This document shows positions 16,818 to 26,479 of a stretch of 64,000 bases of DNA, piece by piece; within the stretch, counting starts at the first letter, position 1; each line of letters begins with the position of its first letter. Below the pieces are notes generated by a model, which ran no database searches, was not told where the DNA came from, and saw only the letters and a list, made by a program, of their open reading frames with translations. The DNA comes from Myxococcota bacterium (GTDB lineage Bacteria; Myxococcota_A; Bradymonadia; UBA7976; UBA1532): positions 1 through 64,000 of the forward strand of contig CAUJDF010000039.1 of assembly GCA_963169045.1 (NCBI GenBank). The letters run 5' to 3'. The translations under genes were made by a program, and so were the position numbers.

Positions 16818-19388
16818 TTACTTCTTGAGGGCCTCGTCGATCAGCCGCTGGAAGCTCTCGAACGGCTGGGCACCGCGGAGCTTCTTGCCGTTGATGAAGA
16901 AGGTCGGGGTGCCCGACGCGCCGACGGTGCGCGCGGCCTCGATGTCGGCGTCGACCTGAGCCTTGAACTTGTTCGTGTCCAGGGCCTTCTTGAACTTGTC
17001 CATGTTCAGGCCGAGCTCCTGCGCGTACTTCTCGAGGTCCGGACGGGTGAGCGCCCGCTGGTTCGCGAAGAGCAGGTCGTGCATCTCCCAGAACTTGCCC
17101 TGCTCGCCGGCGGCGAGCGCCGCCTCGGACGCCAGGGGCGCGTCCTTGTGGAAGCTGAGGGGGTTGTGCTTGAAGACGACGCGCACGTCGTTGCCGTACT
17201 TGTCGGTGATCTGCTTGATGGTCGGGTTCACGCGGGCACAGAAGGGGCACTGGAACTCGCTGAACTCGACGATCGTGACCTTCGCCTTGGCCGGACCCTT
17301 GGCGTAGTCGTTCGGGCCGACCTTGACGTCGTAGACCTTGTTGTCGTCCTCGGGCGGCGCGCCGCCGGCGGCGACGGCGGGCTTGGTCGCGCCGTTCTTG
17401 ATGGTCTCTTCGTAGACCCGGGCGCGGGGCGTGCCCTTCGCGACGAGGTCCTGGGCCTTCTTGAGCTCGTCACCGATCAGCTTGTCGAAGCTCTCGAAAG
17501 GCTGAGCGCCCACGAGCTTGCGGCCGTTCACGAAGAAGTTCGGGGTGCCGCCGGCGCCGATCTGCTGGGCGAGCTTCTGGTCGGCGTCGATCTGCGCCTG
17601 GAACTTGTCGCTCTTCCAGTCCGCCTTGAACTTGGCGATGTTCAGCCCCAGCTCCTGGGCGTGCTTCTCGATCGTGGCGTCGTCGAGCGCCTGCTGGTTC
17701 TCGAAGAGCTTGTCGTGCATCTCCCAGAACTTGCCCTGGGCGCCGGCGGCGAGGGCCGCCTTCGAGGCCGAAGGGGCGTCCTTGTGGAACGGCAGCGGGT
17801 TGTGCTTGAAGACGATGCGCACGTCCTTGCCGTACTTGTCGGTGACCTGCTTGAGCGTCGGGCCGACGCGCTTGCAGAACGGGCACTGGAACTCGGAGAA
17901 CTCGACGATCGTCACGAGCGCGTCGTTCGGGCCCTTGACGGCGTCGGCCGACTCGACCGGCACCTTGTAGACGGTGGTGTCGTCGGCGGCCGGCTTGCGC
18001 TGGGGCGCCGCCGCCGCGGCCTTCGTCAGGCCCTTCTCCGTCAGCTTGTCGTAGACCTGCGCGAGCGGCGTGCCGGCCTTCACGAGGGCCTCGGCCTTGG
18101 TGATCTCCTCGTCGATCAGCTTCTTGAACGCGTCGAAGGGCTGCGCGCCGACGAGGTTGCGGCCGTTGACGAAGAAGTTCGGGGTGCCCTGCGCGCCGAG
18201 CCGGTTGGCGAGCTCCTGGTCGGCCTTCCAGAGGGCGTCGAGCTCGGTGCCGTCGAGGTCCGCCTTGAACTTGCCCATGTCGAGGCCGAGGCCCTGAGCG
18301 TACTGCTCGAGGTTCTCACGCTTGAGGGCCTTCTGGTTCTCGAAGAGCTTGTCGTGCATCTCCCAGAACTTGCCCTGCTTGCCGGCGGCGAGCGACGCCT
18401 TGGCGGCGAGCGGCGCGTCCTGGTGGAAGGCCAGGGGATTGTGCTTGAAGACGACCTTCACCTTGCCCGGGTAGGTGTCGAGGATCTGCTTGATCGTCGG
18501 ATTGACGCGGGAGCAGAAGGGGCACTGGAACTCGCTGAACTCGACGATCGTCACGAGCGCGTCCTGGGCGCCCTTGGTGTAGCTCTGGCCCACCGGCACC
18601 TTGTAGACATCCTTGCTCGTGTCGCCCTGGGCCGCCGGCTCGGCCTTCGCCGGCTCCTTGAAGTTCTTCTTCACCATCGCGGCGTAGAGCTCGTCCGCCT
18701 TGGTGCCGTCTTTCTGGGCCTGCTCGGCGGCCGCAAGCTGCGCGTCGATGACCTCCTTGAAGGAGTCGAACGGCCGCGCGCCGGTGACCTGGACGCCGTT
18801 GATGAAGAAGTTCGGGGTGCCGCGCGCGCCGACCTTCGCGGCCAGCGCCATGTCGGCCTCGACGTCCTTCTTGAACTTCCCGCCGTCGAGGTCGGCCTTG
18901 AACTTCGCCATGTCCAGGCCGATCTCGGTCGCGTACTTCTCGATGCTCTCGCGCTGGAGGGCCTTCGTGTCCTGGAAGAGCTTGTCGTGCATCTCCCAGA
19001 ACTTGCCCTGGGCGCCGGCGGCCAGGGCGGCCTCGGCGGCGAGCGGCGCGTCCTTGTGGAACGGCAGCGGGTTGTGCTTGAAGACGATCCGGACCTTGTC
19101 CTTGTAGGTGTCCTGGATCTGCTTGATCGTCGGGTTGACGCGCGAGCAGAACGGGCACTGGAACTCGCTGAACTCGACGATGGTGATCGGCGCGGTGGCC
19201 GGGCCCTTCGTATAGCTCGTCCCGACCGGGATGATGTCGCTGTCGCCCTTGGCGACCGCCTTGACGGCCTCGACGCCCTTCTTGTCGTCCGCGCCCTTGT
19301 CGTCCCCGCCACCGATCGTGGCGCGGCCGATCAGGAAGGCCGCGGCGGCGACGGCGATGAAGCCGAAGATCGCAGTTTCCTTCTTCAT
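16818..19388 (-). CDS. Four tandem DsbA-like thioredoxin domains in one polypeptide
   Basis: An 856-aa protein with an N-terminal membrane or signal segment (AIFGFIAVAAAAFLIG) and four consecutive DsbA/Trx domains of about 212 residues. Each starts with TIVEFSEFQCPFC; the CPFC cysteines are C78/C81, C289/C292, C502/C505 and C714/C717. Each has FKHNPL..H.DAP, GKFWEMHD and a cis-Pro loop GTPNFF(I/V)NG (GTPTFFING in the last). Linkers are Lys/Ala/Pro-rich. Family knowledge predicts thiol oxidation or disulfide shuffling outside the cytoplasm, with four active sites held together. All four keep both Cys and the cis-Pro, so none is obviously dead. The ATG at 19388 is preceded by AGAGG. Confidence 0.93.
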   Translation of the reverse strand: MKKETAIFGFIAVAAAAFLIGRATIGGGDDKGADDKKGVEAVKAVAKGDSDIIPVGTSYTKGPATAPITIVEFSEFQCPFCSRVNPTIKQIQDTYKDKVRIVFKHNPLPFHKDAPLAAEAALAAGAQGKFWEMHDKLFQDTKALQRESIEKYATEIGLDMAKFKADLDGGKFKKDVEADMALAAKVGARGTPNFFINGVQVTGARPFDSFKEVIDAQLAAAEQAQKDGTKADELYAAMVKKNFKEPAKAEPAAQGDTSKDVYKVPVGQSYTKGAQDALVTIVEFSEFQCPFCSRVNPTIKQILDTYPGKVKVVFKHNPLAFHQDAPLAAKASLAAGKQGKFWEMHDKLFENQKALKRENLEQYAQGLGLDMGKFKADLDGTELDALWKADQELANRLGAQGTPNFFVNGRNLVGAQPFDAFKKLIDEEITKAEALVKAGTPLAQVYDKLTEKGLTKAAAAAPQRKPAADDTTVYKVPVESADAVKGPNDALVTIVEFSEFQCPFCKRVGPTLKQVTDKYGKDVRIVFKHNPLPFHKDAPSASKAALAAGAQGKFWEMHDKLFENQQALDDATIEKHAQELGLNIAKFKADWKSDKFQAQIDADQKLAQQIGAGGTPNFFVNGRKLVGAQPFESFDKLIGDELKKAQDLVAKGTPRARVYEETIKNGATKPAVAAGGAPPEDDNKVYDVKVGPNDYAKGPAKAKVTIVEFSEFQCPFCARVNPTIKQITDKYGNDVRVVFKHNPLSFHKDAPLASEAALAAGEQGKFWEMHDLLFANQRALTRPDLEKYAQELGLNMDKFKKALDTNKFKAQVDADIEAARTVGASGTPTFFINGKKLRGAQPFESFQRLIDEALKK

Positions 19389-20255: not shown

Positions 20256-21857
20256 TTGGCTCCGATTCCCGCGTCGCTGCTGCGCCTGTTCGCTCCCCTC
20301 GAAGGCCTGCTCACCGATCCCGCCGTGCGCCGGGTGTTCGTCGACGGCCCCGGGCGCGTCTTCGTCGAGCGGCATGGCCGGGTGGAGAGGCTCGACGCGG
20401 TCTTCGCGTCGGACGCCCTCGAGGCGGCTCTCGAGGGGCTCGCGCGCCGCGCCGGCAAGGTGTTCGACGCCGCGCGGCCCTCGCTCGAGGCCCGCCTGAA
20501 GGACGGCACGCGGTTCGTGGCGCTCCGGCCGCCGGCCGTGGCCGACGGCCCGGTGCTGGCGGTGGTCCGACCCGGCGGTCGGACGATCGACCTCGGCACG
20601 ATGGTGCGGCAGGGGGGACTGGCCGAGGACGCCGCGTCGCTCCTCGCGGCGGCCGTCGCGGCGGGCCTGAACATCGCAGTCGTGGGGCCGCCGGGCAGCG
20701 GGCGCACGAGCTTCACCGAGGCGCTGGCCTCGGCCATCCCCATCGAAGGCCGCATCGGCGTCCTCGAGGAGTTCCCGGAGCTGCGTCTGCCGGGGCGCGA
20801 GCCGGTCCGCCTCGTGCCGAGCCGTGGCGACGGGCAGGGGCGGGGCGGAGTCTCGGTCGGCGATCTCCTCTACTGCGCGGGTCGCCTCGGCCTCGACCGC
20901 CTTCTGCTCGGCACCGTCCGCTGGCAGGACGCCTGGGACGCCGCCTCCGTCCTGGCGCGGCGCGCAGTGCCCATCATCCTGACCCTGCCGGGGCTGACCG
21001 GCGTCGACGCCATCGCGCGCTTCGAGGCGGTCGCGCGCGCGGGCGCCGGACCGCGGGAGCGCGCCGTGCCCGGCCTGCTCGGCGCCGGCCTCGACCTGGT
21101 CGTGACGCTCGGTGGCCGTCCGGGCGCGCGGCGTGTCGTGGGCGTCGATCGCATCCGCCCCACGCCGGAGGGGCCGCGCCTGGTGCCGCTCTGGGTCGCC
21201 GATCCCGAGGCGCCCGGGCGCCTCGCCGTCGTCGATGCCAAGGAGATCGACGGGTTGCTGTCGGCTTGCCGCGCGTGGGGCCACGTCGTCGAGCCGTTCG
21301 TCGCGGCCGCGTCCATCGAGATCGACGATGAGAGCGAAGCGGACCTGGTCGAGGTCGTGACCGAGGCGAACGCGTCGCTGCCGCCCGGTGAGCTCATGGC
21401 CACGCAGGACGGCATGGCAGCGCTTCGGGTCGCCCCTTCGCCCGACGCCACGGTCGAGCGCCCGGCCCCCCGGCTCCCGCCGCCGCTGCCTGCGCGTGTG
21501 GACGCCGAGGGCGACGAGGACGAAGAGCTGACGATGATCACCGACGTCATCGAGCCCGCGCCCCGCGCCGAGGTGCTGTCGACGAAGACGTTCTCGCAGA
21601 TCCTGCGCACGATCGGCGCCGAGAGCGGCGAGAACACCGAGAGCCTCGATCGGCCCGACGAGGCGTGGTCCGGTCGCCGGGAGGCCGACGCCCGCCGCAC
21701 GAACGAGATGGAGGCGCCCGTCGATCCGGCGGGGACCGTCGAGCGCGACGAGTCGGCCTCCGAAGAGATCGACCTCGAGCCGGTCCTGCGGGGGTTGCTG
21801 ACGCGGCGCCGCGGCGACCGCAACACGGCCGTCCACTCCGACGACGATCCTGTCTAG
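20256..21857 (+). CDS. CpaF/TadA-like secretion ATPase homologue with degenerate catalytic motifs
   Basis: A 533-aa protein whose first ~330 residues follow the CpaF/TadA (type II/IV secretion ATPase) pattern: LFAPLEGLLTDPAVRRVFVDGPG, then GRVERLDAVFASDALEAAL and the nucleotide domain. The Walker A is GPPGSGRTS (144-152) with Arg150 replacing the catalytic Lys. The Walker B region LDRLLLGTVRW has Thr220 where CpaF has the Glu of VGEVRG, and the His box STLHAN is ILTLPGL. ATP hydrolysis is therefore doubtful. About 190 C-terminal residues are acidic, Pro-rich and probably disordered, ending in LRGLLTRRRGDRNTAVHSDDDPV. The TTG start has GGGAGAG 5 nt before it. It converges on the sct genes with 17 nt between stops. 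The likely role is structural or regulatory in an envelope complex. Confidence 0.75.
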   Translation: MAPIPASLLRLFAPLEGLLTDPAVRRVFVDGPGRVFVERHGRVERLDAVFASDALEAALEGLARRAGKVFDAARPSLEARLKDGTRFVALRPPAVADGPVLAVVRPGGRTIDLGTMVRQGGLAEDAASLLAAAVAAGLNIAVVGPPGSGRTSFTEALASAIPIEGRIGVLEEFPELRLPGREPVRLVPSRGDGQGRGGVSVGDLLYCAGRLGLDRLLLGTVRWQDAWDAASVLARRAVPIILTLPGLTGVDAIARFEAVARAGAGPRERAVPGLLGAGLDLVVTLGGRPGARRVVGVDRIRPTPEGPRLVPLWVADPEAPGRLAVVDAKEIDGLLSACRAWGHVVEPFVAAASIEIDDESEADLVEVVTEANASLPPGELMATQDGMAALRVAPSPDATVERPAPRLPPPLPARVDAEGDEDEELTMITDVIEPAPRAEVLSTKTFSQILRTIGAESGENTESLDRPDEAWSGRREADARRTNEMEAPVDPAGTVERDESASEEIDLEPVLRGLLTRRRGDRNTAVHSDDDPV

Positions 21858-21874: not shown

Positions 21875-22819
21875 TCAGTCGCCCGCGCGCGTGATCTGCA
21901 CCGCGAGCTCGCCGTCGTCGTCGACGAGGACGCCCACCGCCACGGTGTGTCCGCCGGCGCGCAGGCGCACGACGGGCGGATTGGCGAGCGCCAGGGGCAC
22001 GACCTGGCCCGTGGCGAGCGCCGCGACCTCGCCGGCGGGCAGCACGAGCGTGCCCACTTCGACGGTGAGTGCGACGGGGAGCGTCTCGAGGCTGGGGAAC
22101 GCCATTTCGTCCTCCGGAGCGAGGCCGGTGGCCCGCAGGCGGCCCCCGGTCCATTCGAGCGTGTACAGGGCGCGGTCGGTGGCGACGAGGCGCAGGCGCC
22201 GCACCGGCAGCAGACTGCCGGGGCGGAGCGGCGACGCGTCGACGGCGACAGGGCCGGCCTCCACGCGGAGCGGCAGCGGCACCATCGTCGCCGCGCTCGC
22301 GGGCGGAGCCGCGCGCTCGTCGGGCAGCCACCAAACGGCGGCGCCCACCTGCCCGCCGATCTCGAGGCGCCAGGTGACGGCGGCGGCGCCCCCCGGCGGC
22401 ACGGGCCACGTGGGGTCGCCGCCATGGACCCACGCCAGGCGCGGCGCGGGCGCCGGCAGCAGGCCGCACCATGCGAGCGCGAGGTAGGCGAAGAGGCCCT
22501 CTTCCGCCGGGGTGAGCGGCGCCGGTCCCACGAGCGTCCCGGGACGGCCGACGAGGCGTTCGAGCGTGCCGGCGAGCAGGTGCGCGTCGACGCGGAGGCG
22601 ACCGACGGCGCCGTCGGGCCACACGAGGCCGGCCCAGGCCGCCGGCAGCATCGAAGTGTTTCGCGGCTCGGGGCGGACAGCGACCGGCAGTTCCAGCAGT
22701 CGCGCCCATGCCGCGGCGGCGGCGGCAGCGCAGTCGACGAGGGCGCGCCCCGTCCTCGAGGCGCGGGCCCGGGCGGCGGCGTCCGGCGCCGGCAGCGGTC
22801 GGGGCCAACCGCACGTCAC
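21875..22819 (-). CDS. sctQ: Type III secretion-like C-ring protein SctQ (SpoA domain)
   Basis: A 314-aa protein ending in a SpoA (FliM/FliN-type) domain: FPSLETLPVALTVEVGTLVLP, then LATGQVVPLALANPPVVRLRAGGHTVAVG and a final GELAVQITRAGD. The N-terminal two thirds are Ala/Pro-rich and divergent. In type III systems SctQ builds the cytoplasmic sorting platform with SctL and SctK. The GTG start overlaps the SctL stop (GTGA). It is the last gene of the operon in the window. The C-terminal domain call is good; that this is non-flagellar SctQ rather than a flagellar FliN relative rests on the lipoprotein SctJ and on the absence of flagellar structural genes nearby. Confidence 0.75.
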   Translation of the reverse strand: MTCGWPRPLPAPDAAARARASRTGRALVDCAAAAAAAWARLLELPVAVRPEPRNTSMLPAAWAGLVWPDGAVGRLRVDAHLLAGTLERLVGRPGTLVGPAPLTPAEEGLFAYLALAWCGLLPAPAPRLAWVHGGDPTWPVPPGGAAAVTWRLEIGGQVGAAVWWLPDERAAPPASAATMVPLPLRVEAGPVAVDASPLRPGSLLPVRRLRLVATDRALYTLEWTGGRLRATGLAPEDEMAFPSLETLPVALTVEVGTLVLPAGEVAALATGQVVPLALANPPVVRLRAGGHTVAVGVLVDDDGELAVQITRAGD

Positions 22820-23343
22820 GGCGGCTCCGGGGGGAGCAGGGCGGCGACGCGGGTGGCGGCGCGGGCGTCCACGCGGCCGGCCGGTCCCTCGAGGACGATG
22901 TCGCCCGGCTCGAGGTGCGCGTCCGCGTCGACCTCGACGCCGGGTGGCAGGCCGGCGGCGCGCAGGGCCGCTGCATCCTCCGGCGACAGGCGGAGGCGCA
23001 GCCAGGCGCCGGGCGGCGCGGCCACCCGCGCGACCTCGAGGAGACGGGCGGCGTCGCCGCGCAGCGACTCGCCCACGAGGCGCGCGGCGAGGGCCAGGGC
23101 GAGCTCCAGCGCCTCGGCGCGCAGGCGCCGCCGCAGCAGGGCGCCGAAGCGATCGAGGGCGTCCAGGCGGCGGCGGAGGCGCACGGTGGCGGCGGCCCGA
23201 GCGTCGGCCCGTGCGGCCTCGAGGGCGGCCTCCCACGCGCCCCGGATCCGGCGCGCCTCATCGAGCGCCGCCCGAACGGCAGGGTCGACGCGCCCACCGA
23301 CGGCGAGCGCGGCGGACGGCGGGATGGATGGCGGGCGTCTCAC
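22816..23343 (-). CDS. sctL: Type III secretion-like stator protein SctL (FliH/YscL family)
   Basis: A 175-aa protein of the FliH/YscL family that links the export ATPase to the C-ring. The long Ala/Arg/Glu helical region (ALDEARRIRGAWEAALEAAR to ALALAARLVGESL) is followed by the globular end with LRLSPEDAAALRA, VEVDADAHLEPGDIVLEG and PAGRVDAR, the diagnostic block of this family. The GTG start overlaps the upstream stop and its stop overlaps the sctQ start, both as GTGA. No export ATPase gene (SctN) is present in the window, so its partner must be elsewhere. Confidence 0.8.
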   Translation of the reverse strand: MRRPPSIPPSAALAVGGRVDPAVRAALDEARRIRGAWEAALEAARADARAAATVRLRRRLDALDRFGALLRRRLRAEALELALALAARLVGESLRGDAARLLEVARVAAPPGAWLRLRLSPEDAAALRAAGLPPGVEVDADAHLEPGDIVLEGPAGRVDARAATRVAALLPPEPP

Positions 23344-23798
23344 GGGGCCTCCGGCGGCGGAGGCGCGTGGCCCACCCACCGGGCGCGCGCGTCGGGCGCC
23401 ATCGAGACGAGATCGCGCCGGCGGCCGGGATCCGGCTCGGCCCAGACCGCGACCCACAGCCCGAGCGCCTCGAGATCCGGCGGCGGCGACGCGAACGTCC
23501 GAGCGTCGGCCACGCGGCGGCCCAGGCGCGCGAGCGCCTCGTCCGGGATCGGACGCGTCGCGCCCTGGGGTGTCCGTGCGCGGCGTTGCAGGCGTCGGAC
23601 GAAGCGGGCCGCCGGCGCGCTCGAGCCGGTGGTCGCCGGTGGCGGTCGGCGCGCGAGGATCGCGGCGAGGTCGGCGGCGACGCATGCCACCGCCCGCTCG
23701 AGCGGCTCGTGCAAGCGGCCCCCCGGCGCGCCATGGTGCGCGATCGCCGCCGCGAGGGCGGCCAGGCCGTCGGGGCCGAGCGGCGCGCCGGCGATCAC
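23340..23798 (-). CDS. Unknown protein in the sctK position
   Basis: A 152-aa Ala/Arg/Pro-rich protein lying between sctJ and sctL, where many type III loci place sctK, the variable pod adaptor. I see no motif that proves SctK identity; the segments LEALGLWVAVWAEPDPGRRR and FVRRLQRRART are the most distinctive. The GTG start at 23798 is set by a GTGA overlap with the SctJ stop. Function is inferred from position only. Confidence 0.5.
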   Translation of the reverse strand: MIAGAPLGPDGLAALAAAIAHHGAPGGRLHEPLERAVACVAADLAAILARRPPPATTGSSAPAARFVRRLQRRARTPQGATRPIPDEALARLGRRVADARTFASPPPDLEALGLWVAVWAEPDPGRRRDLVSMAPDARARWVGHAPPPPEAP

Positions 23799-24421
23799 CG
23801 CGCGGGGCTCCGCCGGAGGCGGCGCAGGCGGCTCAGCAAGACGCCGCACAGGGCGGCGAGCGCGGCAACCGCAGCGCCGGCGGCGACGAGCGCGGGGCGG
23901 CCCGTGCGCTCGGCGGGCACGGCGCGGGCCGCCGCCACGGAATGCAGATCGAGAGTGACGGGGCCTCCCTCGGCCGCGGCGAGGAGCGCGCGGAGACGAT
24001 CGCCGAGCTCGGGCGGCGCGTCGCCGCGGATGCGGACGACGGCGGCGCCGCCGGCGGGTCCCAGGACGACGCGCGCGTCGACCACGCCGGGCGTGCTGCG
24101 CAGCAGCTCGGCGAGCGCGCGGCCGCGACGGGCACGGTCGAGGACGGCGGCCTCGCTCGGCCCCACGACCAGGCGCGAGGGCGCCGGCTCCGCGTCCGTG
24201 CGCGGGAAGCCCGCCTCGCGCACGGCGCTCCACGCCGCCGCCAGCGCGCGACGGTCCACCTCGACGCGGAACCGCGCCGCGCCTTCGGCCACCTTGTGCC
24301 CCTCGAGACCAGCGCCGGCGAGCGCGACCACCACGTCGTTCGCCTCGGCCTCGTCGAGGTCGTGCAGCAGCGCCGCGTCGCAGCCGGCGAGCAGCAGGGC
24401 GGCGAGGACCATCGCCCTCAC
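23795..24421 (-). CDS. sctJ: Type III secretion-like inner-ring lipoprotein SctJ (YscJ/FliF family)
   Basis: A 208-aa lipoprotein. The signal peptide ends in a lipobox (LLLAGC, Cys14), then ring-building motif 1 with LHDLDEAEANDVVVALAGAG, the classic YscJ pattern, a second RBM (LRSTPGVVDARVVLGP) and a C-terminal membrane helix (LVAAGAAVAALAALCGVLLSRL) with a basic tail. Architecture and length fit SctJ rather than flagellar FliF, which is longer and not a lipoprotein. The GTG start overlaps the sigma-factor stop. It would form the inner-membrane ring of the export apparatus. Confidence 0.85.
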   Translation of the reverse strand: MRAMVLAALLLAGCDAALLHDLDEAEANDVVVALAGAGLEGHKVAEGAARFRVEVDRRALAAAWSAVREAGFPRTDAEPAPSRLVVGPSEAAVLDRARRGRALAELLRSTPGVVDARVVLGPAGGAAVVRIRGDAPPELGDRLRALLAAAEGGPVTLDLHSVAAARAVPAERTGRPALVAAGAAVAALAALCGVLLSRLRRLRRSPAR

Positions 24422-25080
24422 GGCCCGCCCCTCGGGTCGAGCAGGCGCCGCAACCGATCCAGGATCTGCCGGTGCCGCCGCGAGATGTACGAGCGAGTCA
24501 CGTCGCGCCGCCGCGCGAGTGCCGCGCCCGAGTCCCCGGTCTCTCGAAAGTCGTACACCGCCTCGATCAGCTCGCGGTCGTCGGGCGGGAGGCGCTGGAG
24601 GGCGCCGCGCAGCGCCTCGATCGACTCGTCGTCGGCCAGGCGCGCCTCGGCGTCGTCGGGCTGCTGCTCAACCGCGCCGAGCGCGGCTTCGGTGAGGAAG
24701 GCGGTGGCGAGCTGGGCGACGGCCGACGTCACAGCGGCCGCGTCGTCGGCGCGGGAGGGCGGCCCGTTGCCCGCCGGCTCCTCGACCACCTCGTGGGCGA
24801 TCGCCTGCCGCCGCAGGTCCTCGTAGGCGCGTCGCGTGAAGAGCCCCTGCGAACGCAGGCCGTCGAAGATCGCGCCCCGGACGCGGTGCCGCGCGAACGC
24901 CTCGAAGTGCACGCCGTGGCGCGGATCGTACTGGCGCGTGGCTTCGACGAGGCCGATGTGACCGAAGCCGACGAGGTCGTCGAAGGTGGGCCCGCCGGCG
25001 GGCAGCCGGCGGGCGATGCGGCGGGCCTCGGCGCGCACGAGGTCGAGCAGCTCGGGAGCGGGGTCGGCGTTGTGCGTCAC
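24418..25080 (-). CDS. FliA-like (sigma-28 group) RNA polymerase sigma factor
   Basis: A 220-aa sigma-70 family protein with region 2 (FDDLVGFGHIGLVEATRQYD, HGVHFEAFARHRVRGAIFDG) and region 4 (ALQRLPPDDRELIEAVYDF, then RDVTRSYISRRHRQILDRLR). The region 2 wording is closest to FliA/WhiG sigma factors. The middle, where region 3 lies, is acidic and divergent. It opens the operon sigma-sctJ-sctK position-sctL-sctQ, with GTGA overlap to sctJ, so the secretion parts and the factor that may transcribe them are made together. The GTG start at 25080 lies 31 nt after the glutamate dehydrogenase stop on the same strand, so read-through is possible. Confidence 0.85.
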   Translation of the reverse strand: MTHNADPAPELLDLVRAEARRIARRLPAGGPTFDDLVGFGHIGLVEATRQYDPRHGVHFEAFARHRVRGAIFDGLRSQGLFTRRAYEDLRRQAIAHEVVEEPAGNGPPSRADDAAAVTSAVAQLATAFLTEAALGAVEQQPDDAEARLADDESIEALRGALQRLPPDDRELIEAVYDFRETGDSGAALARRRDVTRSYISRRHRQILDRLRRLLDPRGGP

Positions 25081-25111: not shown

Positions 25112-26431
25112 TCAGGGGAAGATGCCGCGCTCGCGGTAGACCGTCTGGATGCGGTCGAGCGCGTGCATGTAGGCCGCGGTGCGGTTGTCGACGTTCTTCT
25201 CCTGCGAGATGTGGCGCACGGTCGCGTAGGCGCGGCGCATCATCGTGTGCAGGCGGGCGTCGACCTCTTCGAGCGTCCACATCTCGGCGCGCTGGTTCTG
25301 CAGCCACTCGAAGTAGCTGACCGTCACGCCGCCGGCGTTCGCGAGGATGTCGGGCAGAAGGTCGATGCCCTTGCTCGCCAGGATCTCGTCGCCGTCGAGG
25401 TCGGTGGGGCCGTTGGCGCCCTCGACCACCAGCTTGCACTTCAGCAGCGGGGCCGTCTCGGCGGTGATCTGGTTCTCGAGCGCGGCGGGGATGACGATGT
25501 CGCACTCGGTGGCGAAGAACTGCTCCTTCTCGATCGGGTGGCCGCCGGGATAACCCTTCACGCCGCCGTTCTTCTGGACGTACTCGGCGAGGCGGCGCGG
25601 GTTGAGGCCCTCGGCGCTGGCGATGGCGCCGGTGTGGTCGTGCACCGCCACGAGCGTCGAGCCGAGGCGCGACAGGATGCGCGCCGCGTGCGAGCCCACC
25701 TTGCCGAAGCCCTGGACGGAGAAGGTGGAGCCGTCGAGCGAGAAGTTCGTTTCGCGCGCCCACTCGACGATGCAGTGCACGAGGCCCTGGCCGGTGGCCT
25801 TGTCGCGGCCCTGGGAGCCGCCCGACGTGATCGACTTGCCGGTCACGACGCCGCGAAGCGCGTTCTTGTCCTTCTGCGAGCCGGCGTTCATGAACGTGTC
25901 CATCATCCAGACCATGATCTGGCTGTCGGTGCCCATGTCCGGCGCGGGGATATCGTAGTTCGGGCCGATGTTCTGCCCGAGCGCGTGCGTGAAGCGGCGC
26001 GTGATGCGCTCGATCTCGGTGCGGCTGTGCTTCGACGGGTCGAACTTGATGCCGCCCTTGGCGCCACCGAAGGGGATCTCCATCAGGGCGCACTTCCAGG
26101 TCATCCACGAGGCGAGCGCCTTGCACTCGTTGAGATGGACCTCGGGATGGAAGCGGATGCCGCCCTTGTAGGGCCCCATGATGTTGTTGTGCTGGACCCG
26201 GTACCCCTTGAACAGCCGATAGCTGTTGTCGTCCATGCGGACCGGGAAGTTGATGATGAGCTCGTTCTTCGGCTGCAGCAGTATCGTGTGGATCTCGGAA
26301 TCGAGCCCGAGCGCCTTCGCCGCCTTGTCCAGCTGGGCCTGCGCGACGTCGTAGATGTCCTTCTTCTTGGACACTGGCTTCGCGTCTGCCTTGCGGTTCG
26401 CCTTCTTGTCTTCCTGGGCTTCGGCCATCAT
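25112..26431 (-). CDS. gdhA: Glutamate dehydrogenase (Glu/Leu/Phe/Val family)
   Basis: A 439-aa hexameric-type glutamate dehydrogenase interconverting glutamate and 2-oxoglutarate plus ammonia. Substrate and catalytic motifs are GPYKGGIRFHPEV, MEIPFGGAKGGIKFDP and PAPDMGTD; the Rossmann loop is VQGFGKVGSHAARIL and the end has VEGANGPTDLDGDEIL and LPDILANAGGVTVSYFEW. A Lys-rich 30-residue N-terminal extension (EAQEDKKANRKADAKP) is unusual. The ATG at 26431 is chosen because GAGGAG ends about 7 nt before it; a longer reading to 26467 lacks that site. Confidence 0.95.
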   Translation of the reverse strand: MMAEAQEDKKANRKADAKPVSKKKDIYDVAQAQLDKAAKALGLDSEIHTILLQPKNELIINFPVRMDDNSYRLFKGYRVQHNNIMGPYKGGIRFHPEVHLNECKALASWMTWKCALMEIPFGGAKGGIKFDPSKHSRTEIERITRRFTHALGQNIGPNYDIPAPDMGTDSQIMVWMMDTFMNAGSQKDKNALRGVVTGKSITSGGSQGRDKATGQGLVHCIVEWARETNFSLDGSTFSVQGFGKVGSHAARILSRLGSTLVAVHDHTGAIASAEGLNPRRLAEYVQKNGGVKGYPGGHPIEKEQFFATECDIVIPAALENQITAETAPLLKCKLVVEGANGPTDLDGDEILASKGIDLLPDILANAGGVTVSYFEWLQNQRAEMWTLEEVDARLHTMMRRAYATVRHISQEKNVDNRTAAYMHALDRIQTVYRERGIFP

Positions 26432-26479
26432 CGAGAGCTCCTCGTGCGGGTGGATGCCCGCTGCCATCGAACGCGCGCG

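Follow-up and report, generated by a model that had tools for sequence, protein, structure and literature searches.

Type III secretion systems (T3SS) without secretin and needle are known from Myxococcota (PMC3459982, PMC12075869, PMC11509652): the non-flagellar system of the Myxo group was described as secretin-less and needle-less (PMC3459982), the related T3SS* of Myxococcus xanthus acts together with the Kil Tad pilus (PMC12075869), and T3SS inner-membrane genes are upregulated during predation by Bradymonas (PMC7460792). What such systems export, and how, is the wider question addressed here. The stretch of DNA analyzed (the window) spans 64 kb from the start of contig C39 in a draft Myxococcota genome (G000; 9.0 Mb, 109 contigs, 95 % complete) and harbours a minus-strand operon of five open reading frames, encoding a FliA/WhiG-type sigma factor, SctJ, a protein in the position of SctK, SctL and SctQ. 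The operon is best explained, with good though incomplete confidence, as one of the loci for a reduced non-flagellar T3SS of the needle-less type found in predatory Myxococcota, contributing the inner-membrane ring (SctJ) and the sorting platform (SctL, SctQ and possibly a reduced SctK).

The operon and three further sct loci

The gene order sigma-sctJ-(K)-sctL-sctQ with GTGA overlaps, proposed in an initial sequence-only reading, was borne out: the open reading frames lie at the coordinates given in Table 1, all four junctions overlap by GTGA on the coding strand, GC content by codon position is of coding type in all five genes, and the order sigma-sctJ-(K)-sctL-(sctQ) recurs in five other genomes of the family, representing four other genera. 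Family matches and trees likewise uphold the designation as non-flagellar genes for the inner ring and the sorting platform, headed by a FliA-type sigma factor. SctJ possesses a lipobox (LLLAGC) and a single C-terminal transmembrane (TM) segment, both read from the sequence, and fits the short SctJ family devoid of the extra domains of FliF. In case of the K-position protein, searches with Pfam/TIGR-type models yielded no family match, and its structure model is all-helical with a mean pLDDT of 56, too poor for use. The frames of the K-position gene and sctL form a single open frame in three relatives (Table 1), which could be a real fusion or a translational arrangement.

As claimed beforehand, no gene for SctN, the export gate, a secretin or a needle was seen in the neighbourhood of the operon. 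The lacking sctN, sctV and sctRSTU were located elsewhere in the genome, dismissing the possibility that no other sct genes exist. The non-flagellar T3SS is accordingly split over four loci on as many contigs, i.e., the operon (C39), sctV (C94), fliO-sctRST with a shortened sctU (C58) and sctN (C38), each situated well inside its contig except sctV, which lies at a contig end. Contig C94 encodes a second FHIPEP protein besides FlhA, for which SctV is the best model (TIGR01399, E 4e-133) and a better match than FlhA. The overlapping cluster fliO-sctR-sctS-sctT on C58, followed by the shortened SctU, encodes a second FliP-family protein identified as SctR (E 2e-47) as well as SctS (E 9e-11), SctT (PF01311, E 4e-6) and FliO (E 6e-8). 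The FliI/YscN-type ATPase on C38 is best matched by SctN (TIGR02546, E 1.6e-126). Hence, the core export gate (SctV, SctR, SctS, SctT) and the ATPase (SctN) are present in addition to the SctJ ring and the sorting platform of SctL and SctQ; the genes for all nine parts in G000 are open, coding-biased and overlapping.

The arrangement of the distant loci is also conserved. The fliO-sctRSTU cluster recurs in relatives, and divergent orientation of sctV and a gene for an HD-GYP response regulator, found in G000 (Table 1), recurs in G011 and probably G009 (judged from its upstream sequence); this pairing suggests a link to cyclic-di-GMP. The sctN gene sits between two M16 peptidase genes, and in G009 (L223) and G006 (L224), too, sctN is followed by an M16 gene. 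Proteins of the relatives are 40–70 % identical, and several divergent genera have both the losses and the four neighbourhoods in common. In G020, G041 and G047, which are complete genomes from the same class, sctJ-N, sctR and sctV are far apart on one chromosome; scattering is therefore a feature of the class. The T3SS locus tags of Bradymonas are likewise spread (PMC7460792).

Table 1. Coordinates of the operon, its neighbours and selected features of other loci
Feature	Sequence	Coordinates	Strand	Remarks
Operon, sigma to sctQ	Window	25080-21875	-	Five open reading frames
sigma, FliA/WhiG-type sigma-70 family	Window	24418..25080	-	Regions 2 and 4; GTG start; 220 aa
sctJ, inner-membrane ring lipoprotein	Window	23795..24421	-	TIGR02544, E 6e-15
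K-position protein	Window	23340..23798	-	152 aa; SctK by position only
sctL/FliH-like stator	Window	22816..23343	-	Pfam FliH, E 1.2e-6
sctQ, C-ring/sorting-platform protein	Window	21875..22819	-	C-terminal SPOA (FliMN_C) domain; TIGR02551, E 2e-14; FliMN_C, E 1.5e-10
gdh, glutamate dehydrogenase-type	Window	25112..26467	-	Named from its own sequence
CpaF/TadA-like protein	Window	20256..21857	+	Convergent with sctQ; conserved neighbour
Protein with DsbA/thioredoxin-like domains	Window	16818-19388	-	856 aa; four tandem domains, CPFC motif in each
K-sctL single frame	L247	10623-11402		Relative
K-sctL single frame	L251	11274-12017		Relative
K-sctL single frame	L253	6300-7121		Relative
SctU-like protein without NPTH domain	L016	13344-14024	+	
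sctN between M16 peptidase genes	L017	7817-12263	-	
sctV divergent from HD-GYP regulator	L006	249-3700		
sctV divergent from HD-GYP regulator	L138	2060-5625		

Reduced parts and separation from the flagellum

Homology search for the rod protein SctI gave no match within the family (13 genomes); outside the family it was found in 16 of the 48 genomes searched, including G021 and most members of a second family from this class (f6). Since the genes for sigma and SctJ overlap by GTGA in G000, there is no room for sctI between them. The gene following sctT was examined in five members of the family (L016, L128, L130, L131, L132). Each of its SctU-like products displays the basic motif typical of the N-terminus (RLAAARRRGDVPRAPGY) as well as four TM-like windows, but lacks the NPTH autoprotease domain. 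The SctU of G011 (L128) has a degenerate C-terminal domain matching the SctU C-domain (E 2e-4, with 300 of 300 shuffles scoring lower) and carries GGAR at the NPTH position. NPTH is kept in the SctU proteins of G020, G041 and G047. With PF01312, FlhB was the sole match over the genome. No SctC-type secretin exceeded the cut-off in the genome; partial secretin matches below the cut-off occur, none of them at sct loci and one of them (C37) belonging to a Tad cluster. A needle gene (sctF) was not seen at the inspected loci, no search with the needle family having been made.

These reductions bring up the main rival reading, namely that the operon is a decaying relic without present function in a family losing its T3SS piecemeal. 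Absence of sctI, truncation of SctU and break-up of the cluster agree with decay, as do the partial sets of some members: G008 and G012 possess sctJ and sctV with SctN of flagellar type only, G001 possesses sctV and the sigma gene, and no non-flagellar T3SS gene was found in G003. However, all nine parts in G000 have remained intact as reading frames, and identical losses together with four shared neighbourhoods in divergent genera argue for retention in a reduced form. Judged from this shared retention of open, overlapping genes, decay appears unlikely.

The genome also contains its own flagellar locus on C44 (FliA, FlhF, FlhG, FlhA, FlhB, FliP/R, FliI, FliG, FliF and hook genes, some of them identified by inspection of the sequences), so that the sct genes might represent flagellar paralogues serving as a spare part set. 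Such an origin is extremely improbable. In the SctN tree (29 rows), the ATPase of G000 groups with those of G009 and G006 (100/100) outside the flagellar clade (100/100), and the sigma factor also falls outside its flagellar counterparts (see below); on the basis of these two trees, the sct genes were rejected as flagellar spares. In addition, SctJ is short without the extra domains of FliF, SctV outperforms FlhA as model for the C94 protein, and no flagellar genes are present at the four sct loci. The sct proteins neither group with FliI, FlhA or FliF nor are they encoded beside flagellar genes. The suspicion that a complete flagellar set elsewhere would identify them as paralogues was therefore not confirmed, the set on C44 being separate. 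Taken together, trees and family matches show that the ancestry of the sct set is separate from that of the flagellum.

The sigma factor and the neighbouring genes

The operon sigma factor matches TIGR02479 (FliA/WhiG) with E 1e-22, i.e., under the family cut-off, and Pfam models of sigma-70 regions 2 and 4. In a tree of 42 rows, the sigma factors of the family and its sister family form one group (14 rows, 100/99), and eight flagellar FliA proteins of the same class form another (100/100), which includes the FliA encoded on C44 of G000 itself. The operon sigma neither groups with flagellar FliA nor reaches the cut-off. Its earlier designation as FliA-like thus holds with respect to FliA/WhiG-type regions 2 and 4, but has to be narrowed: according to the tree, the protein is a T3SS-linked paralogue of FliA, distinct from flagellar FliA.

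Members of the same sigma family are encoded near sctJ also outside the family (G016, G018, G019, G021, G058, G119). An alignment-based contig scan of a collection of named genomes revealed sigma near sctJ in 24 of the best 80 loci, 19 of them outside the family of G000, and such loci occur in at least four phyla, namely Myxococcota, Bdellovibrionota, Candidatus Schekmaniibacteriota and Candidatus Eiseniibacteriota. At 13 of these 19 loci, as well as in G021, G058 and G016, sctI is located exactly between sigma and sctJ. The extended order sigma-sctI-sctJ-K-L-N was observed in metagenome-assembled genomes (MAGs) of the four phyla (L203, L204, L269, L285, L295, L298, L303, L309, L316, L322). 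No sctJ was found nearby at the remaining loci of these best 80, including all those of Planctomycetota, and isolated sctJ genes from other Myxococcota classes were accompanied by neither sigma nor another sct gene within the examined stretch, except in G119. The distribution of these loci indicates that the link between this sigma family and T3SS is old and recurrent, not universal.

The gdh gene is co-directional with the sigma gene and located 31 bp upstream of it. Throughout the family and the sister family, gdh and sigma have stayed together; in the five genomes sharing the operon, gdh lies upstream and a gene for a CpaF-like protein is convergent downstream wherever the contig reaches. 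Furthermore, sigma is found beside gdh without adjacent sctJ in G008, G012, G014 and G015 (the latter two without sctJKLQ). Together with the persistence of sigma in two genomes in which non-flagellar T3SS genes were not found (G003, G010) and the lack of sigma-28-type sites at the sct loci (see below), this may indicate that the sigma factor functionally belongs to Gdh and central nitrogen metabolism, or to a general stress regulon, and stands beside the sct genes by history only. Such a role is somewhat unlikely, considering that the same sigma family adjoins sctI/sctJ in other families and phyla without gdh being present there.

The sequence-only reading had suggested a possible autoregulated switch. 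In such a sigma-28 switch, the sigma factor would drive the operon encoding it as well as the sct loci elsewhere, and export of an anti-sigma factor might serve as the gate, as with FlgM. The position of sigma as first gene in the sct part of the operon is compatible with this proposal, and the corresponding logic of FliA is well established for flagella. However, the expected sigma-28-type promoters were not found: a TAAA-N15-GCCGATAA-like site precedes neither the sigma operon nor sctV, fliO/sctR or sctN, a test that is only indicative, as it presupposes a FliA-type recognition sequence. Across the window, 12 degenerate sigma-28-type pattern matches were counted versus 4.6 expected by shuffling, none of them at the sct operon; the excess is probably an effect of composition or codon usage. 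When the regions preceding sctV, fliO and sctN were compared by eye between relatives, no shared motif was apparent. Moreover, no anti-sigma gene was seen at the locus, co-directional gdh directly precedes sigma, and sigma is kept in G003 and G010. The switch is therefore not supported and considered very unlikely.

The CpaF-like protein encoded convergently to sctQ carries a degenerate Walker A motif (GPPGSGRTS versus GGTGAGKTT in the Tad CpaF of the same genome, C37) and has lost the HAN motif. Its counterparts in G011 and G002 display other substitutions at the same sites, the lysine never being present. The protein, which is conserved in the family, also has an acidic tail containing the conserved motif KTFSQxLRxxG. 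Based on these motifs, the protein is a probable pseudo-ATPase. The genome has a complete Tad cluster on C37, which includes a separate CpaF and a secretin. Since T3SS* and the Tad pilus cooperate in predation by M. xanthus (PMC12075869), a link of the CpaF-like neighbour to the secretion machine is tempting, its part in the machine being hypothetical. A diverged gene at the same place in G014 encodes the C-terminal motif with no sctJKLQ beside it. A further gene in the window encodes the protein with DsbA/thioredoxin-like domains listed in Table 1, and similar genes are found near sigma in G001 (L209) and G014 (L205).

Proposed machine and comparison with known systems

According to the favoured reading as a reduced, needle-less T3SS, the family would have inherited a sigma-sctI-sctJ-K-L-N cluster and subsequently lost axial parts, i.e., the rod SctI and the switch domain of SctU, accompanied by break-up of the cluster. 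The switch domain of SctU times the change from rod and needle to late substrates. The remaining machine may represent an inner-membrane exporter driven by proton-motive force and ATPase, with a single fixed substrate class. With less support, the sigma factor might be co-transcribed from gdh and direct the expression of export substrates or of other targets, not of the machine; the exporter might work with the Tad pilus of the genome in contact-dependent killing, by analogy with T3SS* in M. xanthus; a role in predation is correspondingly inferred. The most specific version, an axial-less, one-state inner-membrane exporter without substrate switch, coupled to Tad via a catalytically dead CpaF-like protein and governed by a cross-phylum, T3SS-specific sigma factor, is speculative and as a whole improbable.

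Several points weigh against the favoured reading. A gene could be hidden in a gap of the draft genome, given its fragmentation, its completeness and the position of sctV at a contig end, and SctI and SctF are small and fast-diverging proteins. Profile-profile comparison of SctU by itself is weak (E 0.007, probability 5.5 %), so that its identification relies on gene position, the motif at the N-terminus, four TM-like segments and a single degenerate C-domain taken together. Finally, occurrence in G003 and G010 demonstrates that the sigma factor is not exclusively tied to the machine.

In a lineage that has naturally dispensed with the rod and the switch domain of SctU, export can be viewed apart from the assembly of an injectisome, and relatives keeping both SctI and the switch domain are available for comparison. 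Literature searches yielded no match for a FliA-type sigma factor in non-flagellar T3SS operons or for a T3SS without the SctU switch domain. While lack of secretin and needle in Myxococcota is already published, neither the combination of four loci, a sigma-led operon, no rod and no SctU autoprotease nor the cross-phylum order sigma-sctI-sctJ was encountered in the literature searched.

The closest described system, the needle-less T3SS* of M. xanthus (PMC3459982, PMC12075869), shares with G000 SctJ, L, N, Q, R, S, T and V, no SctC-type secretin being found, and a Tad pilus system in the genome. It differs from G000 by its organization as one cluster, the single conserved cluster of the needle-less Myxo/T3SS* group being replaced here by genes on four contigs, whereas SctI, which belongs to the published short Myxo locus, was not found in G000, SctU is devoid of NPTH and a FliA-type sigma factor leads the operon. 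The predators Bradymonas and Persicimonas of the Bradymonadia (PMC7460792, PMC11509652) probably belong to the same class, and their sctV, sctR and sctJ-N are also separate; complete genomes of the same class, in contrast to G000, keep sctI and an NPTH-containing SctU, and a related sigma gene is usually not located beside sctJ. Flagellar FliA (sigma-28) shares superfamily, regions 2 and 4 and the best NCBIfam match with the operon sigma, which nevertheless forms a separate clade and scores below the cut-off. The same sigma family is encoded co-directionally upstream of sctJ in the sigma-sctI-sctJ clusters of MAGs from Bdellovibrionota, Schekmaniibacteriota, Eiseniibacteriota and other Myxococcota; unlike the operon of G000, these clusters have retained sctI and, as far as visible, also sctN and sctR/S. 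This recurring order suggests that a FliA-type sigma factor has long been a partner of environmental T3SS, one that has hardly been described.

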